From contig JAEULQ010000106.1 in assembly GCA_016792685.1 (NCBI GenBank), forward strand, positions 48,906 to 112,905: a DNA stretch of 64,000 bases, given 5' to 3'. This document shows, one piece after another, positions 1 to 15,061 of the stretch. The stretch comes from Tabrizicola sp. (GTDB lineage Bacteria; Pseudomonadota; Alphaproteobacteria; Rhodobacterales; Rhodobacteraceae). Each line of letters begins with the position of its first letter. The first letter of the stretch is position 1. The translations under genes were made by a program, and so were the position numbers. Below the pieces are notes generated by a model. The model had not been told where the DNA came from. It saw only the letters and a program-made list of their open reading frames with translations, and did not search any database.

Positions 1-1110
1 CCGATGCTGACGCTGGCCCGCCACGCGCTTGGCATCCGGATGATGGGCAAGGCCGACTTCCGCGAATTCCTGCGGATGATCCTGATCAACGTCTATGACG
101 TGCTGAACGATGAACTCGAGGACCCCCGGCTGAAGGGGCTTCTGGCTTTCGATGCGACGCTGGGCTCCTGGCTTGGCCCCCGCTCGCCCAATACGCTGAT
201 CCAGCTTCTGAACCGCTATGCGGGCGAGGCCTCGGGCCAGCGCGCGGCGCTGGCGCTGCCGAAAGGTGGCATGGGCGCCGTCGCAGCCGCCATGCTGCGC
301 GCGGCCGAAGCTGCTGGCGTAAATGTCCGCAGCCAGGCCCGGGTCGAAGGGATCATCCTGGAAGACGGCAGGGCCAAAGGTGTGCGCCTTGCGGGTGGCG
401 AAGAGATCAGGGCAGGGTGCATCGTCTCGGCAATCGGTCCGAAGCAGACCTTCCTTGACCTCGTCGGACCGCGTCAGCTGGACACGGGCTTTGTCAACCA
501 GATCCGCAACCTCAAGTCGCGCGGGGCCGCCGCAAAACTGCATCTCGCTCTGACGGGAACCCCGGATTTCCGTGGCGCCGACCTGCGGACGCGGCTCGTC
601 ATCGCGCCCTCGGAAGCGGCGGTCGAACTGGCCTACAACCCGGTCAAGTATGGCGAGGTGCCCGCCCATCCGGTGATGGAGATCATCCTGCCATCAGCCC
701 ATGAGCCGGGCTTTGCCCCCGCTGGCGGGCATGTCCTGTCCGCCATCGTTCAGTATGCGCCGTATGCCCCGAAAGCGGGCAAGGACGCCGCCCGTGCCGA
801 GATGCTGGAGAACACGCTTTCTGTCCTGGAAACCCACGCCCCCGGCATTCGCGGCCTGGTGGCCCATGCCGAACTCCTGATGCCCTATGACATCGAGGCG
901 CGATACGGCCTTGCGGGCGGCAACTGGCACCACGGCGAACTCAGCGTCGAGCAGATGCTCTTCCTGCGCCCCGTGGCCGGAATGGCCCAGTACCAGACGC
1001 CGGTTGAAGGTCTGTGGCTGGCCAGTGCCGGGGCGCATCCGGGTGGCGGCATCTCGGGCGCGCCGGGTTGGAACGCGGCCGAACGCATCATCAAGGGGGG
1101 CGCGGCATGA
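1..1110 (+). CDS. Phytoene-dehydrogenase-like FAD oxidoreductase (5' end outside window)
   Basis: C-terminal about 369 residues of a flavin amine-oxidase/phytoene-desaturase superfamily protein. The frame is open from base 1, so the start and the N-terminal dinucleotide-binding motif lie outside the window. Visible features are a mid-protein FAD/substrate region with GGMGAVAAAM, and the typical C-terminal FAD loop GGGISGAPGWNAAERI. The stop overlaps the next ATG by 4 bases (ATGA), so it is translationally coupled to the GcvT-like gene. In this operon it probably oxidises an amine, imine or alcohol intermediate made by the Rieske oxygenases; substrate unknown. The family call is firm; the role is inferred from context. 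Confidence 0.8.
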   Translation, partial: PMLTLARHALGIRMMGKADFREFLRMILINVYDVLNDELEDPRLKGLLAFDATLGSWLGPRSPNTLIQLLNRYAGEASGQRAALALPKGGMGAVAAAMLRAAEAAGVNVRSQARVEGIILEDGRAKGVRLAGGEEIRAGCIVSAIGPKQTFLDLVGPRQLDTGFVNQIRNLKSRGAAAKLHLALTGTPDFRGADLRTRLVIAPSEAAVELAYNPVKYGEVPAHPVMEIILPSAHEPGFAPAGGHVLSAIVQYAPYAPKAGKDAARAEMLENTLSVLETHAPGIRGLVAHAELLMPYDIEARYGLAGGNWHHGELSVEQMLFLRPVAGMAQYQTPVEGLWLASAGAHPGGGISGAPGWNAAERIIKGGAA

Positions 1111-2309
1111 GGGTCGAAAAGCGCGCCGATCCGCGGCTTCACTATCTTGAGCCCCTGCGGCAAACGCCGTTTCATCCGCGCACCGCAGCGGCGAACCGGC
1201 TGAACTCCTGGACGGCCTGGGCCGGCTATACCACCGCCCTCGTCTTCGAGGACGAGGCGATGGAATACACCGCGATCCGCAACGCGGCCACCGTCTATGA
1301 CCTCTGCCCGATGGTCAAATACCGGATCGAGGGACCAGAGGCGGCGGTTTATCTGAACCGGCTGACCTTGCGCAACGCCGCAAAGCTTGCGGTGGGCTCG
1401 GTCCACTATACCGCCTGGGTCACCGATGCGGGGCATCTCCTGGACGACGGCACGCTCTTCCGCCTGTCCGAGACGCGCTACCGCCTATGCTGTCAGGAAC
1501 GCCATCTGCCGTGGCTTCTGGACAGTGCCTTTGGCTTCGACGTCGCGATCAGCGAAGAGACCGAGGATGTCGCAGCCCTGTCGCTGCAGGGGCCGACCTC
1601 GTTTGCGGTGCTGCAGGCCGCAGGCTTCGATGTCAGTGCGCTCAAACCCTTCCGCATGGCGAACTTTCCGTTCGAGGGCGGAGAGCTGATGATCTCGCGC
1701 ACCGGCTTTACCGGCGATCTCGGCTATGAGCTCTGGACGACGCCAGACCGGGCCCTGGCGCTCTGGGATCGGCTCTTTGCAGCAGGAGAGCTCCTTGGCA
1801 TCCGGCCGATCGGCTCGGCGGCGCTCAACATGGCGCGGATCGAGGCCGGTTTCGTCATCACCGGATACGACTTCATTCCCGCCGATATCTGCGTGCGTGA
1901 AGACCGGCTGCGTTCGCCGCTGGAACTTGGCCTTGGCTGGCTGATCGACTGGGATAAGGGCCAATTCACTGGCCGGGCGGCCCTTGCGCGGCAAAAGGCG
2001 GCGGGGACGGAATGGTCCTTCGTCGGGCTGGACATCGACGGCAACAATGCGGCCGAAGGCGCGATCCTTTACCACAACCAGAAGCACGAAGTCGGCGTGA
2101 TCACTGGTGCCTGCTGGTCGCCTACCCTGAAGAAAAGCATCGCCTTGGCCCAGATTCGTACAAAGTACGCCGCGGACACCAATCTCTGGGCCGAAATCTA
2201 TGCGCTGCGCGAGCTCCACTATGCCAAGATGATGATGCGCGCGACCGTGGTCGTCCGTCCGTTCTTCAACCCCGACCGCCGTCGCGCCACGCCACCGGGG
2301 AGGTTCTGA
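1107..2309 (+). CDS. GcvT-family aminomethyltransferase-like protein
   Basis: 400-residue folate-binding GcvT/DmdA-superfamily protein. Family members transfer a one-carbon (methyl or methylene) group from an amine or sulfonium substrate to tetrahydrofolate. The DDG (Asp113-Asp114) lies where GcvT-type enzymes carry the catalytic Asp region, and GFTGDLGYELW is a classic GcvT-family segment. The start was chosen at the ATG overlapping the upstream stop (ATGA); longer frames would run into the upstream gene. The stop overlaps the next ATG by one base (TGATG). Between a FAD oxidoreductase and two Rieske oxygenases it likely captures the C1 unit released on demethylation. It could be DmdA-like; the sequence alone cannot tell. 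Confidence 0.8.
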   Translation: MRVEKRADPRLHYLEPLRQTPFHPRTAAANRLNSWTAWAGYTTALVFEDEAMEYTAIRNAATVYDLCPMVKYRIEGPEAAVYLNRLTLRNAAKLAVGSVHYTAWVTDAGHLLDDGTLFRLSETRYRLCCQERHLPWLLDSAFGFDVAISEETEDVAALSLQGPTSFAVLQAAGFDVSALKPFRMANFPFEGGELMISRTGFTGDLGYELWTTPDRALALWDRLFAAGELLGIRPIGSAALNMARIEAGFVITGYDFIPADICVREDRLRSPLELGLGWLIDWDKGQFTGRAALARQKAAGTEWSFVGLDIDGNNAAEGAILYHNQKHEVGVITGACWSPTLKKSIALAQIRTKYAADTNLWAEIYALRELHYAKMMMRATVVVRPFFNPDRRRATPPGRF

Positions 2310-3451
2310 TGGGAAGCCAAGATCGCCATCCGCTGTCGCCGCGCCTGGACCACTGCCCGCAGGGCCTGCCGCGCGCGGCCTATCTGGATCGCGACTGGTA
2401 TGACCGCGAAATGGCGACGATCTTTTCGCGACAATGGGTGATGGTGGGGCGGGCCGCAGATTTCCCGGCCGGGAAGATGCGGCGTGTGCTGGTTGGCGCG
2501 GCCCCCGTAATCGTTGTCCGGGACGCCGAAGGCGCACTGGCCGCCTGGCACAATTCCTGCCCGCACCGTGGTTCCGAACTTTGCCGTGAGGCGGAAGAAC
2601 CGGTCGGCAAGCTGATCCGCTGCCCCTACCACGCCTTTTCCTTTGCGGCCTCGGACGGGCGGCTGGTCTCGACCGCACACGCCGTGCCGACCGAAGACTT
2701 CGACAAGTCCGCTCATGGGCTGAAGCCGGTCGCGACGCGCCAGTGGAACGGGTTCCTGTTCCTTTGCCTTTCGGCCGATCCGGGTCCGCTTTGGGCCGAT
2801 GTCGGGCTGCAGACGCTGGACAACTGGCCGATGGAAAGCCTCGTCACCGGCCACCAATGGGAGACCGAGATCGCCTGCAACTGGAAGGCCTTTTGGGAAA
2901 ACTACTCGGAATGCCTGCATTGTCCCGGCATCCACCCCGAGCTTTGCGACATGGTGCCGATCTACGGTCGCGGGATCATGGGGCCGTCCGAAGCGCTGGG
3001 CTGGACTCCGGATGATCCCGCCCGCCCGAACCTGCGGCAAGGGGCGCAGACCTGGACGCCGGACGGCGCGGCCTGCGGCCCGGTCTTCCCCGGCCTGACC
3101 GAGACCGAACGCCAGGCGGGCTACAACTTCGTCACGCTCTGGCCCTCGGCCTATATCGTGGCGCATGTCGACTATGTCCGTTCGGTCCGGATCGTCCCCG
3201 ACGGGCCCGAGAAGACACGTCTTATCGCCGAATGGCATTTCCCGGCCGAGACGCTGGCCCAGCCCGGCTTTGACGCGGCCAAGGTCGCGGCCTTTGCCAA
3301 GATCGTGATCGAACAGGACGGTGCCGCCTCTGAAATGAACCAGCGGGGAATGCGATCTCCGGCCTTCACCGCCGCGCGACTGATGCCCGAGGAATATGAG
3401 ATCCATCGCTTCCACCAATGGATTCTCGCCCAGATGGAGGACCCCGCATGA
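2309..3451 (+). CDS. Rieske non-heme iron oxygenase, GbcA-like alpha subunit
   Basis: 380 residues. The N-terminal Rieske [2Fe-2S] centre is C84-x-H86 ... C105-x2-H108 (CPHRG and CPYH). The C-terminal SRPBCC catalytic domain carries the mononuclear iron motif ENYSECLHCPGIHPEL, with His204 and His209 as likely ligands. That motif is close to glycine betaine/stachydrine/carnitine-type monooxygenases that cut N-methyl groups. Start at the ATG coupled to the upstream stop. A second, different Rieske oxygenase follows with an ATGA overlap. No reductase (GbcB-like) is present in the visible operon, so electrons must come from a gene left of the window or elsewhere. Substrate not determinable. Confidence 0.85.
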   Translation: MGSQDRHPLSPRLDHCPQGLPRAAYLDRDWYDREMATIFSRQWVMVGRAADFPAGKMRRVLVGAAPVIVVRDAEGALAAWHNSCPHRGSELCREAEEPVGKLIRCPYHAFSFAASDGRLVSTAHAVPTEDFDKSAHGLKPVATRQWNGFLFLCLSADPGPLWADVGLQTLDNWPMESLVTGHQWETEIACNWKAFWENYSECLHCPGIHPELCDMVPIYGRGIMGPSEALGWTPDDPARPNLRQGAQTWTPDGAACGPVFPGLTETERQAGYNFVTLWPSAYIVAHVDYVRSVRIVPDGPEKTRLIAEWHFPAETLAQPGFDAAKVAAFAKIVIEQDGAASEMNQRGMRSPAFTAARLMPEEYEIHRFHQWILAQMEDPA

Positions 3452-4662
3452 ACGAGCTTTCGTCGCACACCCTTCGGGTGCCGAACGACTGGGACCGCCG
3501 CGGGCTGCCGGCCTGGACCTATCATTCAGCGGCCCTGTTCGATCTGGAAAGGACGCATGTCTTTCTCAATCACTGGCAGGTCGCCTGCCATGTGAACGAC
3601 ATTCCCCACACCGGGGATTGGCGGGCCTTTGACCTCCTGGGGGAAAGAGCGCTGGTTGTGCGCGGGCAGGACGGCGCAGTCCGTGCCTTCCACAACCTAT
3701 GCCGCCATCGCGGTGCGCGGGTGGTCGACGGTATGGCCGGAAGCTGCAAGGGCGCCCTGGTCTGCCCCTTCCACGGCTGGGTGTACAATCTGGACGGCAC
3801 GCTGCGCGGCGCCGCGCGGCCCGAGACCTTCGGCACCGGCCTCGACCGCCAGAAGTTCGGCCTGAAACCGATCGAGATGGAAATCTGGCAGGGCTTCGTC
3901 TTCCTGCGCTTCCTGCCCGGCCCGCAACCCTCGGTGGCCGAATGCCTGCAACCCTATGCCGCCGACTTCACCGATTTCCGGTCGGAGGGCCTCTTGCCGG
4001 TCGGCCAGCACGGCTACTGGGGGCAGACACCGGTCAACTGGAAATCGGTTTGCGACGTCGACAACGAAGGCTACCACGTCGCCTTGGCCCATCCCTCGCT
4101 GCAAGAACTTTACGGGCGCAGCTACACCGACGTCTTCCACCCGAACGGGCTGTCCCAGTCCAAGGCCACCTATGGCGACCGGCCGGGGCGGCTTTGGTCG
4201 GTGCGCAACTATGTCAAGCTCTCGCCCCTGCAGGACTGGTTGCCGCCGCACCTGCAGCGGGCCTGGAACTACTACGGGATGTTCCCCAACACGGTGTTCA
4301 TCTTCACGCCCGAGGGGGTGCAGTACTATCAGGAAATCCCGATCTCGGTGAACGAGACCTGGATGAGCTTCTGCGCCTATCGCCAGCCGAACGAAAGCCG
4401 CCAGACCCGCATTGCCCGCTACCTCGTCGCGCGCATCGATCGCCACACTTCGGCCGAGGATCAGCAACTGACGATCTGGTCGAACGAGTCGATGAAGTCG
4501 CTGGCCTTCGACGGCTTCCACCTGTCCGACCTGGAATACGGCGTGCGCAGGCACCACGACAAGCTGCGCCAGCTGCTGCCGGTCATGACCTTGCAAAGTC
4601 CGCCACGCGAAGAAGAGATCAGGGCCCGCAACGAAGAAATGGCTTGTCAGGGGGCAGGCTGA
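3448..4662 (+). CDS. Second Rieske non-heme iron oxygenase alpha subunit
   Basis: 404 residues. Rieske ligands are C85-x-H87 and C106-x2-H109 (CRHRG, CPFHGW). The catalytic domain has NWKSVCDVDNEGYHVALAHPS, giving His210 and His215 as iron ligands; the usual ENY before the first His is replaced by DVDNEGYH, so it is clearly different from its neighbour. Start ATG overlaps the preceding stop (ATGA). A tandem pair of alpha-type oxygenases without a beta subunit could form a hetero-oligomer or perform two successive oxidations. The family is certain; the division of labour is inference. Confidence 0.85.
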   Translation: MNELSSHTLRVPNDWDRRGLPAWTYHSAALFDLERTHVFLNHWQVACHVNDIPHTGDWRAFDLLGERALVVRGQDGAVRAFHNLCRHRGARVVDGMAGSCKGALVCPFHGWVYNLDGTLRGAARPETFGTGLDRQKFGLKPIEMEIWQGFVFLRFLPGPQPSVAECLQPYAADFTDFRSEGLLPVGQHGYWGQTPVNWKSVCDVDNEGYHVALAHPSLQELYGRSYTDVFHPNGLSQSKATYGDRPGRLWSVRNYVKLSPLQDWLPPHLQRAWNYYGMFPNTVFIFTPEGVQYYQEIPISVNETWMSFCAYRQPNESRQTRIARYLVARIDRHTSAEDQQLTIWSNESMKSLAFDGFHLSDLEYGVRRHHDKLRQLLPVMTLQSPPREEEIRARNEEMACQGAG

Positions 4663-4714
4663 GAATAAGCTGACTGAAAAATCAATCACGACGAACCACG
4701 GGGAGAAGACCGCC

Positions 4715-5818
4715 ATGAAACTGAACCGCCGACAGGCGCTTATCGGTGCAACAGCAACTCTCGCCACCCCCTGGGTTCGCCCAGCCCGGGCGCAGGGCGG
4801 GGTCGTGAACGTCTACAACTGGTCCGATTACATCGGCGAAACGACGCTGGCCGACTTCACAGCCGAAACCGGAATCGAGGTCGTCTACGACCTTTACGCC
4901 AGTGCCGAAGAGATGCAGGCCAAGCTTCTGGCCGGGTCCACCGGCTATGACGTCGTGCTGCATTCGGGGCAGGGCCTGCCGCGGTCGGTCAAGGCGGGCG
5001 TCCTGCAGAAGATCGACAAGTCCAAGTTGACCGGGCTGGGCAACCTTGATCCCGAGTTGATGAAGGTCGTCGAGGGCTATGACCCCGGCAACGAGTATAC
5101 CGTGCCTTACATGTGGGGGTCGGTCGGGATCACCTACAACCTCGACATGGTCAAGGAACGCCTGCCGAATGCGAACCTGAATTCGCTGGATGTGCTGCTC
5201 AAGCCCGAGAATGCGGCGCTGCTGGCCGATTGCGGTATCTCGCTGCTCGACAGCCCGAACGACATCGGCTTCATGATCCTGAGCTATCTTGGCGTCGATC
5301 CGAACAAGGCCGGCCCTGCCGAATGGGCGATGATGGTCGAAGCGGTCAAGCCGATCCGCGAATACATCGCGACCTTCGACAATGCGAACTACCTGACCAC
5401 GCTGCCGAACCAGGAGCTTTGCGTCGCCAACACCTGGTCGGGCGACTATGGCGTGGCCAAGGCGCGGGCAGCCGAGGCCGGGATCGATCTGAACCTTGGC
5501 TACTTCATCCCCGAAACCGGCGCCCCCGCCTGGTTCGACCTCTGGGCCGTTCCGGTGGATGCGCAGAACGTCGACAACGCGCACAAGTTCCTCGACTTCA
5601 TGCTGCGTCCCGAAGTCATCGCCGCCTGCACCAACTTCACCGGCTATGCCAGCCTCAATACGGCGGCCTTGCAGTTTGTCGACCCCGCAATTGCGGCCGA
5701 CCCTGCGATCTATCCGGACGCTGCTGCAATGGCACGGCTTTACACCCCGATCCCGCAGACCGCCGAGCAAGAGGCCGACATGACCCGGGCCTGGACCGAG
5801 ATCAAGACGGGCGGCTGA
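4715..5818 (+). CDS. PotD/PotF-type periplasmic substrate-binding protein
   Basis: 367 residues. The N-terminus reads NRRQALIGATATLATPW..ARAQ, a twin-arginine-like signal with probable cleavage after ARA. Mature sequence begins with the family hallmark VVNVYNWSDYIG, as in putrescine/spermidine-binding PotF/PotD. A GGGGAGAA ribosome site precedes ATG. It heads a complete ABC cassette (ATPase and two permeases follow at 1-4 bp spacing or overlap). Ligand is likely a cationic amine or betaine-like compound, the presumed substrate of the flanking oxygenases. A close paralogue lies at 50722-51828, sharing the run YIGETTLADFTAETGIEVVY. Confidence 0.9.
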   Translation: MKLNRRQALIGATATLATPWVRPARAQGGVVNVYNWSDYIGETTLADFTAETGIEVVYDLYASAEEMQAKLLAGSTGYDVVLHSGQGLPRSVKAGVLQKIDKSKLTGLGNLDPELMKVVEGYDPGNEYTVPYMWGSVGITYNLDMVKERLPNANLNSLDVLLKPENAALLADCGISLLDSPNDIGFMILSYLGVDPNKAGPAEWAMMVEAVKPIREYIATFDNANYLTTLPNQELCVANTWSGDYGVAKARAAEAGIDLNLGYFIPETGAPAWFDLWAVPVDAQNVDNAHKFLDFMLRPEVIAACTNFTGYASLNTAALQFVDPAIAADPAIYPDAAAMARLYTPIPQTAEQEADMTRAWTEIKTGG

Positions 5819-5819
5819 C

Positions 5820-6914
5820 GTGGAAGAACCCTTTCTGCGGATCGAGGGGGTCTCGAAGGACTTCGGGTCCTTCCAGGCTGTCCGGAATGTCTCGCTGACC
5901 GTGGGCAAGGGCGAGATCTTCTCGCTTCTCGGCGGGTCGGGCTGTGGCAAGACCACGCTTCTGCGCATGCTTGCCGGGTTCGAAGAGCCGACCGCCGGGC
6001 GCATCTTCCTTGATGGCCGTGACATGGCGGGCGTTCCCCCTTGGGAGCGCCCGGTCCACATGATGTTCCAGTCCTATGCGATCTTCCCGCATATGACGGT
6101 CGAAGCGAACGTCGGTTACGGGCTGAAGCACGAAAAGGGCCTGACCAAGGCGCAGAAGGCCGCCCGAGTGGCCGAAATGCTGGAACTCGTGCAACTGACC
6201 CCCTTCGCGCACCGCAAGCCGCACCAGATTTCCGGCGGACAGCGGCAACGGGTGGCGCTTGCCCGGGCCTTGGCGCGGCAGCCCAAGCTCCTGCTCTTGG
6301 ACGAACCCCTGGCCGCACTGGACAAGAAGCTGCGCGAACATACCCAGTTCGAGCTGATGTCGATCCAGGAACGCACCGGCGTGACCTTCATCGTCGTCAC
6401 CCACGACCAGGAAGAGGCGATGACGCTTTCGGACCGGATCGCGGTGATGGACAAGGGCGAGGTCAAGCAGGTGGGCAGCCCGACCGAAATCTATGAATTT
6501 CCACATAGCCGCTTCGTGGCCGGCTTCATCGGATCGGTGAACAGTTTCGAGGCGACCGTCCTGTCCCGCGAGGACCGCGCGCTCCGTCTTTCAGTCCCCG
6601 GCCTTGGCGGCGAGGTTCTGGCCCGTGACGTGCCCGGTGTGGTTGCCGGGCAGTCGGTGACACTCGCTGTCCGACCCGAGAAGCTGGCGCTGTCAAAGGA
6701 TCGCCCGCAGTCGCCCAATGTCTTTCAGGGGCATGTCAAGGACCTGGCCTATTTCGGCAAGGACAGCCTCTATCGGGTCACCCTGCCCGGGGCATTGGTG
6801 CAGGCCCATGCCGTCAACGCCCGTCGCGGCGACGAAGGTGCGCGCGTGGCCGACTGGAATGACGCGGTCTGGCTGGCCTTCGATCCGGCCTCGGCCATCG
6901 TGCTGGCGGATTGA
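5820..6914 (+). CDS. Polyamine-type ABC transporter ATP-binding protein (PotA/PotG-like)
   Basis: 364 residues, GTG start one base after the upstream TGA. Walker A GGSGCGKTT (about 38-46), signature SGGQRQRVALARAL, Walker B LLLLDEPLAALD, H-loop VVTHDQEEAM, then a C-terminal TOBE-type regulatory domain (about 280-364). This length and domain order match PotA/PotG ATPases that energise uptake of putrescine/spermidine-like ligands. It pairs with the two permeases immediately downstream. Confidence 0.93.
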   Translation: MEEPFLRIEGVSKDFGSFQAVRNVSLTVGKGEIFSLLGGSGCGKTTLLRMLAGFEEPTAGRIFLDGRDMAGVPPWERPVHMMFQSYAIFPHMTVEANVGYGLKHEKGLTKAQKAARVAEMLELVQLTPFAHRKPHQISGGQRQRVALARALARQPKLLLLDEPLAALDKKLREHTQFELMSIQERTGVTFIVVTHDQEEAMTLSDRIAVMDKGEVKQVGSPTEIYEFPHSRFVAGFIGSVNSFEATVLSREDRALRLSVPGLGGEVLARDVPGVVAGQSVTLAVRPEKLALSKDRPQSPNVFQGHVKDLAYFGKDSLYRVTLPGALVQAHAVNARRGDEGARVADWNDAVWLAFDPASAIVLAD

Positions 6915-6916
6915 CG

Positions 6917-7831
6917 ATGAGCAGCGGGCGCTTTGCCGGGTGGTTCGATCGCAAGGGCTGGACGGGCATCCTGATTGGCGCGCCCTATGTCTGGCTGGTG
7001 ATCTTCTTCCTGTTCCCCTTCCTCATCGTCGTCGCGATGAGTGTGGCCACCAACACGCCGACCGCCCCGCCGTTCTCCTTCGGCGGCGAGTATCCCCTGA
7101 TCAATACCGGCGCCTATGAGCGCCTGCTCACCGACGGGCTTTACCTCCGCGCCTTCCTCACCTCGGTCGTCAATGCGCTGCTTGCGGCGGTCCTTTGCCT
7201 CCTGATCGGCTACCCGATGGCGCTGGGCCTGACCCGCGTCTCGAAAAGCCGGCGCAACATCCTCCTGATGCTGGTGATTCTGCCGTTCTGGACCTCGTTC
7301 CTGCTGCGCGTCTATGCCTGGATGGGGCTGATGGGCAAGAATTCCTGGTTCAACGACCTGCTCACCGACGCCTGGAACTTCCTCGTCCCGATCGATTGGG
7401 CCGTCCGGTCGATCCCGATGATGAACTCGAACTTCGCTGTCGTGCTGGTCATGGTCTACACCTACCTGCCCTTCATGATCCTGCCGCTCTACGCCAGTCT
7501 CGAACGGCTTGACCCGACGCTGGACGAGGCGGCAATGGACCTTGGCAGCCGTCCCTCGCAGGTGTTCCGCGATGTCACGCTGCCGCAGTCGGTTCCCGGC
7601 ATCATTGCCGGTGGAATGCTGGTCTTCATCCCTGCCGCCGGCGAACTGGTGATCCCGACGCTGGTTGGCAATGCCTCGCAACCGATGATCGGGCGGCTGA
7701 TCTCGGATGAATTCTCGCAGGCGCGGGACTGGCCGATGGCCTCGGCCGTGGCAGTGGCGCTGCTGGTCCTCATGGTGGTGCCGACGATGATCTACAGCCA
7801 CTACCAGGCCCGGGCGGAGGGCACGAAGTGA
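6917..7831 (+). CDS. ABC transporter permease (PotB/PotH-like)
   Basis: About 304 residues. Hydrophobic segments start with APYVWLVIFFLFPFLIVVAMS, and the cytoplasmic EAA loop reads EAAMDLGSRPSQVFRDVTLP, as in binding-protein-dependent permeases of the PotB/PotH group. The start is uncertain: an in-frame TTG at 6911 overlaps the upstream stop, but the ATG at 6917 is more likely. The stop overlaps the GTG of the next permease (GTGA). It forms the membrane channel with the following gene. Confidence 0.92.
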   Translation: MSSGRFAGWFDRKGWTGILIGAPYVWLVIFFLFPFLIVVAMSVATNTPTAPPFSFGGEYPLINTGAYERLLTDGLYLRAFLTSVVNALLAAVLCLLIGYPMALGLTRVSKSRRNILLMLVILPFWTSFLLRVYAWMGLMGKNSWFNDLLTDAWNFLVPIDWAVRSIPMMNSNFAVVLVMVYTYLPFMILPLYASLERLDPTLDEAAMDLGSRPSQVFRDVTLPQSVPGIIAGGMLVFIPAAGELVIPTLVGNASQPMIGRLISDEFSQARDWPMASAVAVALLVLMVVPTMIYSHYQARAEGTK

Positions 7832-8667
7832 AGCGAAGCCCGACCTTCCTGATCACCGTGCTCTGTTTCGGCTTTGCCTTCCTTTACGTCCCGATCCTGT
7901 CGATGATCGTCTACAGCTTCAACGCCTCGCGGTTGGCGACGGTCTGGGGCGGGTTCTCGACGAAATGGTACGTCTCGCTCGTCTCGAACCAGGCGGTGAT
8001 CGATGCCCTGGTCCTGTCGCTGAAGATCGCACTCGTCTCGGCGTCCATCGCCACGATTCTGGGCACGATGGCCGGGATCGCCCTGGCGCGTTTCAGCCGG
8101 TTCCGCGGGCGCATGTTCTTCTCCGGCCTGGTGATCGCGCCGCTGGTGATGCCCGAGGTGATCACCGGCATCTCGTCGCTGATCTTCTTCATCCTGATGG
8201 CCGACTGGGTTGGCTGGCCGGGTCAGCGGGGGTTCACCACCATCACGTTGGCCCATATCACCTTTTCCATGGTCTTTGTGACCACCATCGTCCAGGCCCG
8301 GATGGTCCAGTCTGACCGCGCCATCGAAGAGGCGGCGATGGACCTTGGCTCGCGTCCCTGGCAGGTGCTGTTCGACATCACGCTGCCGGTGATCTCGCCG
8401 GCGATCCTGTCGGGGTGGCTTTTGGCTTTCACCATCTCGCTTGACGACGTGGTGATCACGGCCTTCACCACCGGGCCCGGCTCGACCACGCTGCCGCTCC
8501 TGATCTGGTCCAAGGTCAAGCTGGGCGTGACGCCTGACATGAACGCGCTGGCCACGCTGATGGTCCTGTTTGTCGGCGCCGGGGTCGTTACGGCCGGCAT
8601 CATCATGAACCGGGCCGAGAAGCGTCGTCTGACCGACGAGCGACTGGCCTTCCGTGCCAATGACTGA
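7828..8667 (+). CDS. ABC transporter permease (PotC/PotI-like)
   Basis: 279 residues with about six membrane segments and the EAA loop EEAAMDLGSRPWQVLFDITLP. GTG start overlapping the previous stop (GTGA). PotC/PotI-type inner-membrane subunit completing the transporter made by the three genes upstream. The 3' end overlaps the cupin gene by 8 bases, tying the cupin to the transport operon. Confidence 0.92.
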   Translation: MKRSPTFLITVLCFGFAFLYVPILSMIVYSFNASRLATVWGGFSTKWYVSLVSNQAVIDALVLSLKIALVSASIATILGTMAGIALARFSRFRGRMFFSGLVIAPLVMPEVITGISSLIFFILMADWVGWPGQRGFTTITLAHITFSMVFVTTIVQARMVQSDRAIEEAAMDLGSRPWQVLFDITLPVISPAILSGWLLAFTISLDDVVITAFTTGPGSTTLPLLIWSKVKLGVTPDMNALATLMVLFVGAGVVTAGIIMNRAEKRRLTDERLAFRAND

Positions 8668-9508
8668 CGCGCGCCACCTCTTGTACAGCCCCCTCGGGCA
8701 ACCCGGCTCGGGGCGGGTGCGGTATGGCGCGGCCATGGCGCTTTGGCGTGCGGGCCAGATCAGCGAGGCGGTCCTTGAAGTCTATCGCATCGCCGCCGCG
8801 CATGACGGACGGGACCCGCTGTCGATGCTCGCCGAACGCGGCCTGCCAGCTCCGCCTCTGCCCGAACCGCAGTCGGCCCTTCAGCGCCTCTACACTACGG
8901 CCCGCGCCTATCTTCTGACCCTCGATCATCCTGGCGCCGAGGATGTCCGCGCCGGACTTCCCATGGATCCGGGGCATGAAGCCGGGATCACACCGCACGG
9001 CAATCCGGTCGTCGAACGCTGGCTCGCCCCTGCACTGGATGCGCTGCGACCGAAAGAGCCGCAGCTCGCCGAGGCAATTGCCGGGGCGGCAGATCAGCTC
9101 AACTGGATCACCTACGACGCCTATCCCCGCGAAAGGATCGGCGAGTCCTTTGCCACGGGCCATGCCTATGCCTCGATCATGGGAGGCGAAGCCGCCTTCG
9201 AAGCGGAGGATTTTGATCTTGGCATCTTTCTCATCGCCCCCGGCGTGCTCTACCGGGACCACCGCCATGCCGCGCCCGAGCTTTACGCCCCGCTGACCGG
9301 GCCGCATGGCTGGCGCTTTGCCCCACAAAGGCCTCTGCAGATCAAGCCCGCGCACGAACCGGTCTGGAACCCGCGGTATCAGCCGCATATGACCAAGGTC
9401 GGCCCGGTTCCTTTCCTTTGCCTGTTTGTCTGGACCCGGGACGTCAACGAGATCGCCGAGGTCATTCCAAGCGACGACTGGCCCGCGCTTGAACAGCTGT
9501 CACTCTAA
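8660..9508 (+). CDS. Cupin with DddQ-type dimethylsulfoniopropionate lyase motif
   Basis: 282 residues from the ATG at 8660 (a GTG at 8654 is possible). The C-terminal half is a cupin with Y198-x4-H203-x3-E207-x-Y209, the same spacing as the Tyr120/His125/Glu129/Tyr131 set I recall from the DMSP lyase DddQ. A later His (232 or 243) could be the fourth metal ligand. The protein is about 80 residues longer than DddQ, with an alpha-helical N-terminus. Translation is coupled to the permease gene (8-bp overlap). Known DddQ cleaves DMSP to acrylate and dimethyl sulfide. Here the neighbours are Rieske and GcvT-like genes, so the substrate may be DMSP or another onium compound. Confidence 0.7.
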   Translation: MTDARHLLYSPLGQPGSGRVRYGAAMALWRAGQISEAVLEVYRIAAAHDGRDPLSMLAERGLPAPPLPEPQSALQRLYTTARAYLLTLDHPGAEDVRAGLPMDPGHEAGITPHGNPVVERWLAPALDALRPKEPQLAEAIAGAADQLNWITYDAYPRERIGESFATGHAYASIMGGEAAFEAEDFDLGIFLIAPGVLYRDHRHAAPELYAPLTGPHGWRFAPQRPLQIKPAHEPVWNPRYQPHMTKVGPVPFLCLFVWTRDVNEIAEVIPSDDWPALEQLSL

Positions 9509-9961: not shown

Positions 9962-10351
9962 TTAGGCGGCCTTGGGCTTCCGTTCCGCCAGAATGCGGGG
10001 CAGGGCACCCTCGATCCAGCTGGTCAGCGCCACCACATGTTCCGCCGCTTCCCGACCGAGCGGGGTCAGCTCATAGTCGACATGCGGCGGGACGACCGGA
10101 TGCGCTGTCCGCAGGATGAACCCGTCGGCCTCCAGCTCTTGCAGCGTCTGTGCAAGCATTCTTTCGCTGATCCCGCCCACCCGCCGCCGCAACTGCGCAA
10201 AGCGGTGTGACCCCGTGGCCAGCACGATCATCACAAGCCCGCCCCAACGGCTGGTCAGGTGTTGCAGGATCGGCCGCGAGGGACAGTCGGGCGCCAGGAC
10301 ATTGCCGCGCGCCCAGCGGTCGATCAGCGCCTGTGCATCCGTGTCCAGCAT
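9962..10351 (-). CDS. HxlR-family transcriptional regulator
   Basis: 129 residues with an HxlR winged-helix core: HRFAQLRRRVGGISERMLAQTLQELEADGFILR, the recognition helix and wing. Members often sense reactive carbonyls, quinones or disulfide stress and repress a divergent oxidoreductase. It is divergent from the QorB-like gene at 10450, the same arrangement as ytfH-ytfG in Escherichia coli, so it most likely controls that gene. No cysteine lies near the N-terminus except C23, which could be a redox sensor; this is inference. Confidence 0.88.
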   Translation of the reverse strand: MLDTDAQALIDRWARGNVLAPDCPSRPILQHLTSRWGGLVMIVLATGSHRFAQLRRRVGGISERMLAQTLQELEADGFILRTAHPVVPPHVDYELTPLGREAAEHVVALTSWIEGALPRILAERKPKAA

Positions 10352-10449
10352 GATGTGCGTCCCCGTCCTATACTAACAAATTTGTGCGTACTTCCTTTCC
10401 GTAAGTATCCGGATATGTCTGCTGCGTCAACCCAAGCAGGAGAACAGAC
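10352..10449. promoter_or_regulatory. Divergent promoter region of HxlR regulator and quinone oxidoreductase
   Basis: 98-bp AT-richer intergenic region with an inverted repeat TACTT (10389-10393) and AAGTA (10403-10407), a plausible HxlR operator. AGCAGGAG before the ATG at 10450 is the ribosome site of the oxidoreductase. Assignment of the repeat as operator is inference. Confidence 0.45.
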
Positions 10450-11283
10450 ATGTCAAAGATCGCCATCACCGGGGCCACCGGCCAACTCGGCCGACTGGCC
10501 GTTGCCGCCCTGAAAGACCGTGGCGCTACCCCCATCGCTCTGGCCCGCGACCCCGCAAAGGCCGGGGATCTTGGCGTGGAAACCCGGGCATTCGACTATA
10601 CGGCAGCCGATCCGGCTGCGCTTTCCGGCGTCGAGACCCTGGTCCTGATATCCTCGAACGATTTCAATGACCGTGCGGGCCAGCACCGCAATGCCATTGC
10701 CGCGGCCAAGGCGGCCGGGGTCAAGCGGATCGTCTACACCTCGATCCTGAAGGGATCGGCCAATCCGATGCTCCTGGCCTTGGACCATGTCGCCACCGAG
10801 GCTGCGCTGCAGGACAGCGGCCTTGCCGTGACCACCCTGCGCAACGGCTGGTACACCGAGAACTACACTGGCGCGCTTGACGCTGCGGTCCAGCACGGTG
10901 CGATCATCGGTGCGGCAGGCGAGGGGCGTGTGTCCTCGGCCGCCCGCAAGGACTATGCCGAGGCCATTGCCGTGACTGCGCTGGATCCGGCCCATGCCGG
11001 AAAGACCTATGAGCTGGCCGGTGACACCTCGCACAGCGGCGCCGATCTGGCGGCAACCCTGGCACAGGTCGCGGGCAAACCCGTTGCCTATGTGTCCATG
11101 CCTCAGGCCGACTATGCCAAGGCACTGGTGGGTTTCGGTCTGCCCGAAGGCTTTGCCCAGGCCCTGGCAGACAGTGACGCCCAGGCCGCGAAAGGTGCGC
11201 TGCACGACGACAGCCGGACACTGTCGCGGCTGATCGGTCGCCCGACAACGCCCTTCGCAGAAACGCTTCGCGCGGCCTTCTGA
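10450..11283 (+). CDS. qorB: NmrA/QorB-type NAD(P)H:quinone oxidoreductase
   Basis: 277 residues. Rossmann start MSKIAITGATGQLGRLA with the GATGQLG nucleotide-binding loop at 8-14, and the atypical-SDR pattern VYTSILKG plus LRNGWYTENY. This matches the QOR2/YtfG family, which reduces quinones with NADPH and protects against electrophilic quinones. A good Shine-Dalgarno (AGGAG) precedes the ATG. The divergent HxlR gene supports the YtfH/YtfG-like assignment. The symbol is by homology of family and context. Confidence 0.85.
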   Translation: MSKIAITGATGQLGRLAVAALKDRGATPIALARDPAKAGDLGVETRAFDYTAADPAALSGVETLVLISSNDFNDRAGQHRNAIAAAKAAGVKRIVYTSILKGSANPMLLALDHVATEAALQDSGLAVTTLRNGWYTENYTGALDAAVQHGAIIGAAGEGRVSSAARKDYAEAIAVTALDPAHAGKTYELAGDTSHSGADLAATLAQVAGKPVAYVSMPQADYAKALVGFGLPEGFAQALADSDAQAAKGALHDDSRTLSRLIGRPTTPFAETLRAAF

Positions 11284-11534
11284 CGACCGCGATCGCGGAA
11301 TGCTCCCCATGCTCATCCCGTCCGCTTTCTGGCAAGACGGGGTGGGCATGGGGGGAATGCCAAATCTGAAGAAAGGGTAAACCGGCTGCGGCAACCCATT
11401 GATTTGGCTAAGGTGGCCAATTTGTCCACGCTGGACAGGGTAGGGCGCAGGTCGCAAACGATCAACAAGCCGTCCCCTTCGGCTTGGAAAGAGCCCGGTC
11501 GGCCGCTAGTCTCCTCCCGAAGAAGGAGAGCCCC

Positions 11535-11945
11535 ATGCCGCGCGCCGAAACCCTCGCCCTGATCCGCCGCTACTATGATGCCTTCAATGCCGGGAACCCC
11601 GCCGGCATGCTCGACTGCCTGACCGACGACATCGAGCACCGGGTGAACGAGGGCGCCCACCGGATCGGCAAGGCGAAGTTCGCCGAATTCTGCAGCCACA
11701 TGGGCGTCAGCTACCGCGAGCAGCTGAAGGGCCTGGTGGTCTTCGCCACGGACGACGGCACCCGCGGGGCGGCAGAGTTCGTGGTCCACGGCGAGTATCT
11801 CAAGACCGACCCCGGCCTGCCCGAAGCCCGCGGCCAGCGCTACGTTCTTCCAGCTGGCGGGTTCTTCGAGGTCAAGGGCGGAAAGATCGCGCGCATCACC
11901 ACCTTCTACAACCTCAACGACTGGATCCGGCAGGTGAGCCTGTGA
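11535..11945 (+). CDS. SnoaL-like (NTF2-fold) ketosteroid-isomerase-related protein
   Basis: 136 residues with the SnoaL/NTF2 barrel pattern: ALIRRYYDAFNAGNPAGMLDCLTDDIEHRVN at the N-terminus and FFEVKGGKIARITTFYNLNDWIRQV at the C-terminus. The start at 11535 has AAGGAGAG five bases upstream; an earlier in-frame start at 11484 lacks one. The downstream GNAT starts inside its stop codon (GTGA), so both are co-translated. Function unknown; the fold serves isomerases, hydrolases and binding proteins alike. Confidence 0.8.
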   Translation: MPRAETLALIRRYYDAFNAGNPAGMLDCLTDDIEHRVNEGAHRIGKAKFAEFCSHMGVSYREQLKGLVVFATDDGTRGAAEFVVHGEYLKTDPGLPEARGQRYVLPAGGFFEVKGGKIARITTFYNLNDWIRQVSL

Positions 11946-12538
11946 ACATCGACGACATCGACGTCCGCGCCCTGCGCGGCCCCGACCTGGAAGCCGCCCT
12001 TGATGGCGTGGCCCAGCTTCGGATCACCGTCTTCCGCGAATGGCCCTATCTCTACGACGGTTCGTCCGAATACGAACGCGAGTACCTCAACACCTACCGC
12101 GACAATCCCGGCGCGCTTCTGGTGGGGGCCTTCCATGACGGCCGGCTTGTCGGTGCCTCGACTTCCACCCCGATGGAAGACCACTCACCGGAATTCTCCG
12201 CCCCCTTCCGCGCCCTCGGCATCCCGCCCGAGAAGATCCTGTACGGCGCGGAGTCCGTCCTCCTCCGCCCCTATCGCGGTATCGGCCTTGGCCACCGTTT
12301 CATCGACCTGCGCGAGGATCACGCCCGTGCACTGGGACGGACCCATGTTGCCTTCTGCTCGGTGATCCGCCCGGAGGACCACCCGGCCCGGCCTGCGATC
12401 TACCGATCGAACGACAGCTTCTGGATGGGCCGCGGCTATGACCCCGTCCCCGGCGCCGTCGCGCATTTCAGCTGGAAGGACCTTGGCGACACGGTCGAGA
12501 CTGAAAAGCCCCTGCAATTCTGGATGCGCGAGCTTTGA
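11942..12538 (+). CDS. GNAT-family N-acetyltransferase
   Basis: 198 residues starting at a GTG that overlaps the upstream stop. An acetyl-CoA binding stretch is visible as YGAESVLLRPYRGIGLGHRFIDLREDHA (motif A variant RGIGLG). It is coupled to the SnoaL-like gene; this pair recurs in Rhodobacteraceae genomes as far as I recall. The acceptor is unknown. It sits immediately upstream of the infA block but is separated from it by 250 bp. Confidence 0.82.
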   Translation: MNIDDIDVRALRGPDLEAALDGVAQLRITVFREWPYLYDGSSEYEREYLNTYRDNPGALLVGAFHDGRLVGASTSTPMEDHSPEFSAPFRALGIPPEKILYGAESVLLRPYRGIGLGHRFIDLREDHARALGRTHVAFCSVIRPEDHPARPAIYRSNDSFWMGRGYDPVPGAVAHFSWKDLGDTVETEKPLQFWMREL

Positions 12539-12630
12539 CCGACGCGTGGCCGGCGTCAGCAGGCCCCATCGTGCGCCCCATTAGGCATGGCCCGGTGCCA
12601 TACACCTGCCATACGCATGCCAGACACAAA

Positions 12631-12650
12631 GCAGACGCTTTGCAGACGCT
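12631..12650 (+). promoter_or_regulatory. Tandem 9-bp repeat upstream of infA
   Basis: GCAGACGCT occurs twice (12631-12639 and 12642-12650) with an 11-bp period, about one helical turn, in the 250-bp gap upstream of infA. It could be a regulator or UP-type site of the infA promoter. Nothing else coding is seen in 12539-12787. Confidence 0.35.
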
Positions 12651-12787
12651 GATTTTCGGGGAATTCCGTGGGATTAACCCCGATTCGGGCCATATTCCAG
12701 AATCCGCTTGAAAACCGCCCTTTTCGCGGGCATATCGCCCGGCGGAAGCCTGCGGCCACCCGCGGGCCCATCTGCAATGGAGAGACC

Positions 12788-13006
12788 ATGGCCAAGGAAG
12801 ATATTCTCGAATTCCCCGGTGTCGTGAAGGAACTCCTGCCGAACGCGACATTCAGGGTCGAACTCGAGAACGGCCATGAACTGATCGCGACGATGGCAGG
12901 CAAGATGCGCAAGAACCGCATCCGGGTTCTGGCAGGCGACAAGGTGCAGGTCGAAATGACCCCATACGACCTGTCAAAGGGTCGCATCAACTACCGCTTC
13001 AAGTAA
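12788..13006 (+). CDS. infA: Translation initiation factor IF-1
   Basis: 72 residues, the normal IF-1 length, starting [20 protein letters not shown] and containing the S1/OB-fold core [20 protein letters not shown] followed by [16 protein letters not shown]. It binds the 30S A site during initiation. The start at 12788 has TGGAGAGA upstream; extension to 12668 would add non-IF-1 residues. First gene of the infA-maf-RNase-yacG block, a conserved alphaproteobacterial arrangement. Confidence 0.98.
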
Positions 13007-13012
13007 CTGATC

Positions 13013-13588
13013 TTGCGGCTTATTCTGGGATCTGGCAGCCCGCGCCGGAAAGAGCTTCTGGCTGGGCTTGGCATCGTGCCCAATCTGATCCTGCCCCCCG
13101 ACATCGACGAAGACCCCCGCAAGGGCGAGCTTCCCCGCCCCTATGCCGCCCGCCTGGCAGCGGAAAAGGCGCGGGCGGTTCCGGCTGGCCCCGAGGATGT
13201 CGTCCTGTGCGCCGACACCACCGTGGCGCTTGGCCGACGCATCCTCGGCAAGCCCGAGGATGCCGGGCAAGCCGCTGAATTCCTGACACTTCTCGGCGGT
13301 CGCCGGCACGAGGTCATCACCGCCATCGCTGTCCGCAAGGGCGACCGGCTCCTCTCCCGCGAGTCCTTAAGCGTGGTGAAGATGAAGCGCCTCTCGGATG
13401 ACGAACTGAACGCCTATCTTGCCAGCGGCGAATGGCAGGGCAAGGCCGGAGCCTATGGAATTCAAGGACTTGCCGGTGCGTTTATCCCGTGGATTTCCGG
13501 CTCCTTCACCGGCATCATGGGCCTCCCGGTGGCCGAGACCGCAGCGTTGCTGAGCGCCATCGGCTACCCGGTCTGGAGGCAGGAATGA
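13013..13588 (+). CDS. maf: Maf-family nucleotide pyrophosphatase
   Basis: 191 residues, TTG start six bases after infA. The N-terminus [19 protein letters not shown] is the Maf signature. CADTTVALG carries the catalytic Asp and GKPEDA the conserved Lys. Maf proteins hydrolyse non-canonical NTPs (dTTP/UTP/m5UTP type) and affect septation. TTG is the only start that keeps the Maf signature at the N-terminus. The stop overlaps the next ATG (ATGA). Confidence 0.94.
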
Positions 13589-14622
13589 AGGGCCGTCTGC
13601 TTGTCCTCGACGAACGTTCCGGTCGCCAGGCCGCTGCGCTACTGGTCGACGGCCGTCTTGAAGAGCTCTCCATCGACCCAGAGGGCGACACCGCCCTTCC
13701 CGGTGCGATCTACCGCGCCGTTGCCGACCGTCCGGTCAAGGGCCAGGGCGGCATCTTCGTCAAACTGCCCGAGGGCTCGGGCTTCCTGCGCCAGATCTCT
13801 GGCGTCGCCCCCGGCCAGCGGCTTTTGGTCCAGGTCACCGGCCCGGCAGAACCCGGGAAGGCCACGCCCGTCACCACGCGCCTCCTCTTCAAGTCGCGCT
13901 TCGCCATCGTCACCCCGGATGCTCCGGGCCTGAATATCTCCAGACAAATCAAGGATGAAGATCGCCGCGCCGAGCTTTCTGCCCTGGCCGAGGCCGGGAT
14001 GAAGGGCGCGGATGACCGTCTCGGCCTGATATTGCGTTCCGGCTGTGCTGCTGCCGAAGAGGATGCCATCGCCGAAGATATCGCCGCCATGCGCGGCCTT
14101 GCCGAAGCGGTGCTCGCCGACCTCACCGGCGGCCCCGAGCTTCTGGTCGACGGTCCTTCCGCGCATGACATCGCCTTTCGCGACTGGCTTGACCCTGCGG
14201 TTGATGACGCCGACACCGACCCCGGCAGCTTCGACCGCCATGGCGTGACCGAGGCGATCGAGGCCCTTCGCACCCCTCGCGTGGCGCTCGACGCCGGGGC
14301 GAGCATGATGATCGAGCCGACCCGGGCGCTGGTTTCAGTCGATGTTAACACTGGGCCTGATACATCTCCGGCTGCGGCGCTCAAGGCCAGCATCGCCGCC
14401 GCCCGCGACCTGCCGCGCCAGCTGCGCCTGCGGGGCTTGGGGGGCCAGGTGGTGGTGGACTTCGCGCCGATGCCGAAACGCGACCGGCATATTCTCGATC
14501 AGGTGCTGAAAGCCGCCTTCAAGACCGATGGCGATGCGAACCTTGCGGGCTGGACGACGCTCGGCCTTTACGAGCTGACCCGCAAACGCGACCGCCTGCC
14601 GCTGGCGGAGCTTCTGCCATGA
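13585..14622 (+). CDS. Ribonuclease E/G-family protein, short form
   Basis: 345 residues, ATG coupled to the maf stop. Catalytic metal-site segments [10 protein letters not shown] and [16 protein letters not shown] are those of RNase E/G. It is much shorter than RNase G (about 490): the C-terminal zinc-link CPxCxG and small domain are absent and the S1 part is reduced. Such short forms occur beside yacG in Rhodobacteraceae; full-length RNase E would be elsewhere. Probable role is rRNA or mRNA 5'-end processing. Activity without the Zn-link is uncertain. Confidence 0.88.
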
Positions 14623-14795
14623 GCTGCCCTGTCTGCGGCAAGCCGACCGATGCCGCCTACCGCCCCTTCTGCTCCCGCCGCTGTGCCGACGTCGACCTCG
14701 GCCGCTGGCTGACCGAGAGCTACCGCATCCCTGCCGAATCTCCGGACGAAGGCGAAGACGTACCGCAGGACGCCCCCTCGCCTAAGCCGCATTAA
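14619..14795 (+). CDS. yacG: DNA gyrase inhibitor / zinc-binding protein YacG
   Basis: 58 residues; small and easily missed. ATG overlaps the preceding RNase stop (ATGA). The zinc knuckle is CPVCGKPT ... PFCSRRCADVDLGRWL, followed by YRIP and an acidic tail, exactly the YacG pattern. YacG binds GyrB and blocks DNA binding in enterics. The four cysteines are at 3, 6, 18 and 22. Last gene of the core operon, followed by tRNA-Phe. Confidence 0.95.
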   Translation: MSCPVCGKPTDAAYRPFCSRRCADVDLGRWLTESYRIPAESPDEGEDVPQDAPSPKPH

Positions 14796-14855
14796 GGGGC
14801 GTTTTCCCTCTGGACAGCCCCCCTTGGCTTGAGTATCACCCGCCCACCAAACGGT

Positions 14856-14931
14856 GCCCAGATAGCTCAGTTGGTAGAGCAGCGGATTGAAAATCCGCGT
14901 GTCGCTGGTTCGATTCCGGCTCTGGGCACCA
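14856..14931 (+). tRNA. tRNA-Phe (GAA)
   Basis: 76 nt, folds as a standard cloverleaf. Acceptor GCCCAGA/TCTGGGC, D stem GCTC/GAGC, anticodon stem GCGGA/TCCGC with loop TTGAAAA (anticodon GAA at 14889-14891), T stem GCTGG/CCGGC with loop TTCGATT, discriminator A and encoded CCA. Sits 60 bp after yacG. Confidence 0.98.
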
Positions 14932-15061
14932 CTTGATTTCCATGATGAGCGGGTGGTGCGGGGTGGTGCTGACAGCGGGTCAGGCTACAGCCGTTTTTTT
15001 GTGGCGGGTTGCGGGGCGGCCTTGGGTATCGGGGCTGGACCGCTGGTGAGCCTTGGGGGCG

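Follow-up and report, generated by a model that had tools for sequence, protein, structure and literature searches.

The first 9508 positions of a 64,000-nucleotide stretch of DNA from Tabrizicola sp. (GenBank assembly GCA_016792685.1, contig JAEULQ010000106.1), here called the window, hold nine genes on one strand that encode a flavoprotein, a GcvT-like folate protein, two Rieske oxygenases (Rsk1 and Rsk2), the four components of a PotF-type ATP-binding cassette (ABC) importer and, last, a protein in which a helical N-terminal domain (NTD) is fused to a cupin of the DddQ fold. The operon recurs in the same order, patchily, across the Rhodobacteraceae, and its steadiest feature is the NTD, which, more than the cupin, is tied to Rsk2. 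The NTD is probably a physical or direct functional partner of this oxygenase, and the DddQ-like part appears to be dispensable for the core. The operon may well encode the catabolism of a cationic N-methylated amine of the polyamine type, one that ends in a primary amine and whose other nitrogen is methylated and possibly quaternary, a reading that we hold with about even confidence. What is new in comparison with the original prediction, drawn from the letters of the window alone, of a complete uptake and dealkylation path for a methylated onium compound that mixes sulfonium and ammonium chemistry, is the NTD with its strict link to Rsk2, a cupin that seems dispensable and an importer pocket of the amine type.

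The NTD, the cupin and Rsk2

The relatives considered here are the 80 best loci among 445 confirmed relatives of Rsk2, obtained from a protein scan with Rsk2; they are hence near kin, mostly from the Rhodobacteraceae. Sixty-seven extend at least 7 kb downstream of Rsk2, and the NTD is present in all 67, the DddQ-type cupin in 58. In the other nine the NTD stands alone (four loci), is accompanied by a separate small cupin (four) or is fused to a small cupin (one); L033 was scored as separate, the reading frame of its NTD being interrupted by unread bases. The 13 loci with less than 7 kb downstream were excluded, and five of these showed no NTD in the 791 to 4,007 bp that they offer.

At the level of genomes, a model of the NTD matches 17 of 248 from the family (247 genera), and these are exactly the 17 with an Rsk2 of at least 56% identity. 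No NTD was found in the 14 genomes whose Rsk2 is at 44-54% identity, nor in the 217 without an Rsk2 match at 1e-80. The association with close Rsk2 (17 of 17 versus 0 of 231 genomes) has a Fisher p of 1.2e-26, or 3.3e-18 when all 31 Rsk2 genomes are counted, values that are a guide only since the genera are related. The two genes lie on the same contig and strand within 4.6 kb of each other in 16 of the 17 genomes, five of them within 81 bp, and are on separate contigs in the remaining one. Among 385 genomes of the class, the window's own genome matched and the 384 others did not. Candidates scored per genome were capped at 24 in the family search and at 16 in the class search, and absence is meant at that sensitivity. 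Where no importer intervenes, as in four loci, the NTD match begins 26-30 bp past the last Rsk2 codon, and L132 to L135 likewise have the NTD directly behind Rsk2, within 81 bp. Five rhizobial records were also matched, and the three examined all carry the NTD.

The last gene, described earlier as a 'DddQ-type cupin', encodes two domains. Its PF16867 match is restricted to residues 106-253 of the product (65.8 bits against a gathering score of 27), and the first ~66 residues form a separate conserved domain with nine invariant columns in 30 diverse copies. The AlphaFold2 model of the whole product, with a mean predicted local distance difference test score (pLDDT) of 95.5, has helices at residues 17-30, 36-45, 53-59 and 73-86, followed by the cupin barrel. 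Several genomes encode the NTD on its own, in an open reading frame of about 65-90 residues, and L055 has it joined to another kind of cupin, small and ChrR-like. Searches with the NTD gave nothing above cut-off in Pfam (best TPR_16, E 0.0016, in one of 30 members) or NCBIfam (best E 0.017) and nothing significant in the PDB (best E 1.2). Its assignment to a known domain was rejected, the TPR match being judged a weak helical resemblance. No Rieske oxygenase of the CntA/Stc2 type is known to depend on a small accessory protein.

The cupin, for its part, belongs with DddQ by fold, Pfam score and active-site residues. In Foldseek the six best PDB matches of its model are all DddQ (template modelling score by target 0.74-0.79, 19-20% identity). 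H201, H203, E207, Y209 and H243 are kept in 64-66 of 66 rows and Y198 in at least 90% of 54 rows; the metal and catalytic residues of DddQ itself are Y120, H123, H125, E129, Y131 and H163 in the available part of PMC4437653. The window cupin thus shares with the dimethylsulfoniopropionate (DMSP) lyase its fold, its Pfam family, the metal ligands and the two catalytic Tyr. It differs in overall sequence (~20% identity), in having an R-D motif ahead of the first His, in the fused NTD, in the amine-operon context and in being absent from some loci. At E <=1e-10 the cupin query matches 21 of the 248 family genomes. Full-length matches below E 1e-70 occur in 10, all among the 17 Rsk2/NTD genomes; in three others of the 17 only the NTD accounts for the match. 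The cupin family is not confined to the operon, because the other eight of the 21, outside the 17, have weaker cupins (E 1e-10 to 1e-29) without the NTD. The window's own genome has a second, weaker cupin on contig C103.

A quick tree of Rsk2 with 87 rows (93 minus six loci of unresolved state, namely L016, L020, L039, L042, L052 and L075) needs six changes of the cupin-bearing state, at least five of them forced by starred branches. Two loci, L091 and L092, were labelled in it as NTD-less, and both clusters were later shown to carry the NTD further out. We read this history as one fusion with several losses, although the change count cannot separate losses from gains. Because the NTD is constant and the cupin is not, and because the NTD set coincides with the genomes of closest Rsk2, the lyase-like part would seem dispensable for the core.

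Cupins are also found in other settings. On Phaeobacter and Leisingera plasmids (L096 7794-8480 and L097 6929-7615) a DddQ-like cupin about 32-39% like that of the window, with no NTD match, is flanked by an acyl-CoA ligase gene on one side and FadB-like and thiolase genes on the other, with a betaine-type ABC importer adjoining the cluster in L096; this cupin may belong to a CoA-dependent breakdown of onium or carnitine-like compounds. A Mesorhizobium plasmid (L095 8983-9678) has a cupin 52% identical to window residues 61-282, again with no NTD match, whose neighbours are genes for a ferredoxin, an FAD oxidoreductase and a sterol-desaturase-like protein. Operon versions at L132 3456-4190, L133 1853-2566 and L056 16411-16776 have cupins of three types (DddQ-like, EutQ-like Cupin_3 and ChrR-like Cupin_7).

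Rieske pair, importer and proposed route

In CntA the bridging residue is E205, the cation is bound by Y203, and C206 and C209 form a Cys pair that is found in some Group V members only, according to the available parts of PMC7948474 and PMC10952381. Rsk1 has the bridging Glu, the cation Tyr and the Cys-X-X-Cys beside the iron His in all of 65 rows (at least 300 residues and at least 45% identical to the window Rsk1). Rsk2 keeps the bridging Glu and has Asp at CntA Tyr203 and Gly/Val for the Cys pair in 86 of 86 rows, a pattern that held in 93 of 93 when rows at about 50% identity were included; it has neither the cation aromatic nor the Cys-X-X-Cys of Group V. Common to both enzymes are the Cys/His of the Rieske centre and the pair of iron His, the Asp/carboxylate ligand lying outside the mapping. 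Judged by these residues, the quaternary-ammonium signature is carried by Rsk1 only. The label 'GbcA-like' that had been given to the pair accordingly suits Rsk1 by signature and does not suit Rsk2. Membership of GbcA itself was rejected for both, since Rsk1 (165 bits) and Rsk2 (112 bits) miss the curated cut-off of NF058607 (670 bits).

In Foldseek the 13 best matches to the AlphaFold2 model of Rsk2 are CntA, followed by three to Stc2, so that Rsk2 has the fold of CntA, in which the cation site is altered. Rsk1 is like CntA and Stc2 in the Rieske motif, the iron His, the bridging Glu, the cation Tyr and the Cys-X-X-Cys, and Rsk2 in the fold, the iron His and the bridging Glu; unlike them, Rsk2 has the substitutions given above and is accompanied by the NTD. 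Both are distant from them in sequence, with best phmmer scores of 137 bits (Rsk1) and 104 bits (Rsk2).

For the importer, the pocket positions of PotF, with roles as in the available part of PMC8666671, were transferred by alignment of the window binding protein and counted over 81 binding proteins. The amine pocket is largely retained: W37 and W244 are kept in all 81 and D278 in 80, D39 is Asp in 76 and Glu in five, D247 is Asp in 79 and Glu in two, and E185 is Asp throughout. F276 is Trp in every one, as in PotD. The window importer is like PotFGHI (and SpuD) in its four components and most of this pocket, and unlike them in falling below the curated cut-offs of PotF, PotG, PotH and PotI, in the mostly replaced distal S87 and in its PotD-like Trp. 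The pocket speaks for a dication of the polyamine type and not for DMSP or glycine betaine. Its carboxylates, and the Asp that Rsk2 has where CntA binds the cation, both suggest that the substrate is a protonated amine and not a betaine with a carboxylate. The substrate class is thus probably a cationic amine; that the substrate is specifically an N-methylated polyamine is a tentative proposal, falling short of probable.

In the proposed route the PotF-type importer would take up the dication, and Rsk2, with the NTD as a small subunit or assembly factor, would hydroxylate the carbon beside the protonated nitrogen to give an amine and an aldehyde. Rsk1 would strip a methyl from the quaternary nitrogen as formaldehyde, the flavoproteins would remove further methyls or oxidise the amine, and the GcvT-like protein would transfer the C1 unit to folate. 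A class III aminotransferase (AT3) could convert the primary amine to an aldehyde, and the core could work without the cupin, an accessory attached to the NTD. The best curated model for the GcvT-like gene is the C-terminal half of trimethylamine N-oxide (TMAO) demethylase, below cut-off; its scores are 269.7 of 1100 bits for TMAO demethylase, 135.9 of 410 for DmdA and 219.8 of 300 for GcvT. Stachydrine and choline/betaine operons are alike in combining an importer, a Rieske demethylase, C1 handling and a regulator, and unlike in that the window operon has a polyamine-type importer, two CrtI-like flavoproteins, the class III aminotransferase and the NTD.

Of the 'complete uptake and dealkylation path' that had been envisaged, uptake and oxidative dealkylation of a cation stand and completeness does not, no Rieske reductase being found among the operon genes in the Pfam/NCBIfam scan. 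Only two reductase genes of PF00175 turned up in the assembly, which is 89% complete. By eye, one lies beside dimethylamine-monooxygenase-like genes and the other looks like a ferredoxin-NADP reductase. Dimethylamine-monooxygenase-like genes with a reductase are seen, also by eye, at L130 70-2735 on contig C13 of the same genome, and about 5 kb from such genes this contig has a short DNA match to the window GcvT-like gene.

The usual order in the relatives is a divergent BetI-like regulator, AT3, two CrtI/CrtO-like flavoproteins (FAD1 and FAD2), GcvT, Rsk1, Rsk2, binding protein, ATPase, two permeases and the NTD-cupin gene, after which an amidohydrolase and a methyltransferase often stand. 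The complete run of eight genes, FAD2 through the second permease, is present in 36 of the 80 loci (32 of the 57 that extend at least 4.5 kb upstream and at least 5.5 kb downstream), and since order and strand are identical in all 36, the gene run is not due to chance. Among the 56 loci with at least 9 kb upstream, the regulator is present in 49, Rsk1 in 47, GcvT, FAD1 and FAD2 in 33 each and AT3 in 32, and GcvT occurs without Rsk1 in one. With at least 9 kb downstream (60 loci), each transporter gene is found in 58, the amidohydrolase in 31 and the methyltransferase in 28. These counts describe nested modules, namely a core, then Rsk1, then the block of flavoproteins, GcvT and aminotransferase. 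The nesting in the Rhodobacteraceae suggests that the core alone may handle a non-quaternary amine, that Rsk1 may open up the quaternary form and that the GcvT/flavoprotein block may recover the methyl carbon.

Finding the same gene order in other Rhodobacteraceae accords with the original prediction, as does the co-occurrence elsewhere of the Rieske pair and the cupin, on which that prediction depended. The distribution is patchy: 17 of 248 family genomes have an Rsk2 of at least 56% identity. The 248 include one other genome of the same genus as the window, G191, which has no Rsk2, cupin or NTD. The named isolate Fuscovulum ytuae carries the entire set on a plasmid. In the open literature searched, mostly as titles and abstract openings and with subscription papers and preprints lying outside it, no description of the same gene set was recognised.

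Weighing the proposal against its rivals

Several observations weigh against the proposed N-methylated polyamine route or the part given in it to the NTD. The binding protein scores 335.9 bits against the curated PotF cut-off of 636, the pocket serines are poorly kept (S38 in 35 and S87 in three of the 81 proteins, S87 being variable, at 45%, among PotF relatives in the available part of PMC8666671), and L132 to L135 have Glu at D39. The Rsk2 model has a mean pLDDT of 80 with low confidence in the active-site stretch, and with CntA and Stc2 as its top matches Rsk2, too, might act on a quaternary substrate. In the three rhizobial plasmid clusters, flavoproteins and GcvT are present with no close Rsk1 in the stretch examined, which breaks the nesting, and the NTD stands directly behind GcvT, at least 4 kb from Rsk2, so that it might serve GcvT instead; these clusters carry an importer, in which no relative of the window binding protein was found at E 1e-20. 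Weak or distant NTDs could have escaped the genome searches, and a cupin kept in 58 of 67 loci probably matters where it is present. The histamine-dehydrogenase-like gene discussed below is near one of the 80 window-type loci (L019), and the BetI-like regulator together with Rsk1 would suit a plain relative of betaine or choline as substrate equally well.

One rival is a zwitterionic betaine or carnitine-like substrate, for which both Rieske enzymes would be relatives of CntA, GbcA and Stc2 and the PotF-like importer would have drifted to betaines. The complete Group V signature of Rsk1, the top fold matches of Rsk2 and the regulator in 49 of 56 loci all agree with it, as do MTTB-family methyltransferase genes near two operon versions without an importer behind Rsk2 (L080 2076-3614 and L089 17412-18989; the family scan was made on the L080 copy, with which the L089 copy clusters). 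The regulator of L043 scores 110.5 and 103.5 bits against BetI cut-offs of 201.3 and 118, and no copy stands beside the window operon, although a 67% relative is found on contig C65 of the assembly. A betaine substrate is nevertheless unlikely, as the carboxylates of the polyamine pocket are retained in nearly all 81 binding proteins and Rsk2 lacks the cation Tyr and the Cys pair in every row. No description of an operon for the homarine pathway was found in the open literature, judged from titles and abstract openings.

The loci with a stand-alone NTD, L132 to L135, hint at a class of substrate, a cationic amine, rather than a compound. A flavin amine oxidase gene directly follows the NTD in all four (by Pfam in two, and in the others by 51-53% identity), and a gene of the histamine dehydrogenase/trimethylamine dehydrogenase family, which the window operon does not have, adjoins in L132, L133 and L135. 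The L132 copy scores 762 and 748 bits against histamine dehydrogenases in the PDB and 581 bits against trimethylamine dehydrogenase, and the L133 and L135 copies are 57% and 75% identical to it. One could therefore propose a histamine-type or guanidino amine, its cation end being an imidazole or guanidine beside which Rsk2 hydroxylates and the Amidohydro_3 protein of many loci opening the ring product. The equivalents of D358 and W267 are kept in all three proteins, the class III aminotransferase PRK07036 lies, above cut-off, near Rsk2 in L091 and L133, AT3 has GntE of guanitoxin biosynthesis as its best model (437 bits against a cut-off of 525), and the amidohydrolase is weakly like HutI (42 bits over 50 residues). 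Yet Q65 is Glu in the three proteins, and the family also accepts putrescine, agmatine and spermidine (site residues and substrates from the available part of PMC10180351). Unless the amine were methylated, moreover, there would be no methyls for Rsk1, GcvT and the flavoproteins to remove, and this substrate is distinctly unlikely.

Ordinary polyamine use, that is, the uptake and oxidation of putrescine or spermidine, would account for the PotF/G/H/I-like set with its retained pocket, and for the class III aminotransferase and amine-oxidase-like flavoproteins, but is very unlikely because two Rieske oxygenases, one with a quaternary-ammonium signature, and a folate C1 protein would be superfluous for plain polyamines. 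Least probable of all is an onium pathway in which the cupin, DddQ-like as it is and present in 58 of 67 loci, works as a lyase of DMSP or DMSOP alongside the demethylases, given that the Rsk2 tree demands five or more changes of cupin state under a constant NTD, that some loci have cupins of other families and that the importer pocket is amine-type. The mixing of sulfonium and ammonium chemistry is not upheld by these results, and a DMSP lyase route as the operon core was rejected on the same grounds.

Set against these rivals, the cationic N-methylated amine remains our preferred reading. A further idea, which we would call possible rather than probable, is that the NTD is the dedicated small subunit of a new Rieske subfamily of the Rsk2 type, acting on protonated polyamine-like cations. 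It would first have been a separate protein of roughly 75-85 residues, whose gene in one lineage immediately follows that of the oxygenase, and later have moved behind the importer and become joined to a DddQ-type cupin (in one case to a ChrR-like one), opening a route to methylated polyamines. Diatom polyamines are methylated, and the N-methylated polyamines of diatoms are a candidate source. The long-chain polyamines in the available part of PMC6356823 are described without methylation.

The operon on its contig and its significance

The families found by Pfam and NCBIfam match those first assigned to the window genes in outline, and the presence and placing of the nine genes were verified (Table 1). 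Consecutive genes overlap by 4, 1, 4, 4 and 8 bp or are separated by gaps of 1, 2 and 52 bp, which bears out the earlier description of nine co-directional genes with one gap over 50 bp; these figures depend on gene starts selected among the candidate starts of the open reading frame list.

Table 1. Genes and domains of the operon in the window
Feature	Position	Strand	Remarks
FAD2, CrtO/CrtI-like flavoprotein (Amino_oxidase Pfam)	1..1110	+	C-terminal 369 of 519 aa in window
GcvT-like folate protein	1107..2309	+	GCV_T and GCV_T_C
Rieske 1 (Rsk1)	2309..3451	+	Group V signature Y199-x-E201-C202-x-H204-C205 (quaternary ammonium)
Rieske 2 (Rsk2)	3448..4662	+	core oxygenase; D205-N-E207-G-Y-H210-V
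PotF-like binding protein	4715..5818	+	pocket W36, D38, D183, W241, D244, W273, D275
PotG/PotA-like ABC ATPase	5820..6914	+	Pfam/NCBIfam
PotH-like permease	6917..7831	+	Pfam/NCBIfam
PotI-like permease	7828..8667	+	Pfam/NCBIfam
NTD-cupin fusion gene	8660..9508	+	two domains
NTD, ~66-aa helical domain, putative companion of Rsk2	8660..8857	+	unmatched in domain libraries searched
DddQ-fold cupin domain (PF16867)	8975..9505	+	Y198, H201, H203, E207, Y209, H243

The draft assembly comprises 3.58 Mb in 136 contigs and is 88.9% complete. The window edge truncates the operon, the 5' end of FAD2 lying upstream on the contig, where FAD1 and AT3 precede it (L009 12466-17016). Divergent to the operon, an apparent copper-type P-ATPase and a MerR-like regulator are seen by eye on the minus strand (L009 9483-12394), in the place where most relatives carry the BetI-like regulator. 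On the 3' side, window positions 9962-15000 appear ordinary, with HxlR-like and NmrA-like genes, apparent infA, maf and ribonuclease E/G genes (by eye) and a tRNA-Phe.

A strict genomic partner of a Rieske oxygenase makes a direct test of the partnership possible. Algae release a nitrogen-rich pool whose bacterial fate is unclear, and if the substrate is indeed a methylated polyamine, the operon would provide a gene marker for this pool. Finally, those Rhodobacteraceae genes that are named 'DMSP lyase family' and carry the NTD should not be counted as DMSP lyases.

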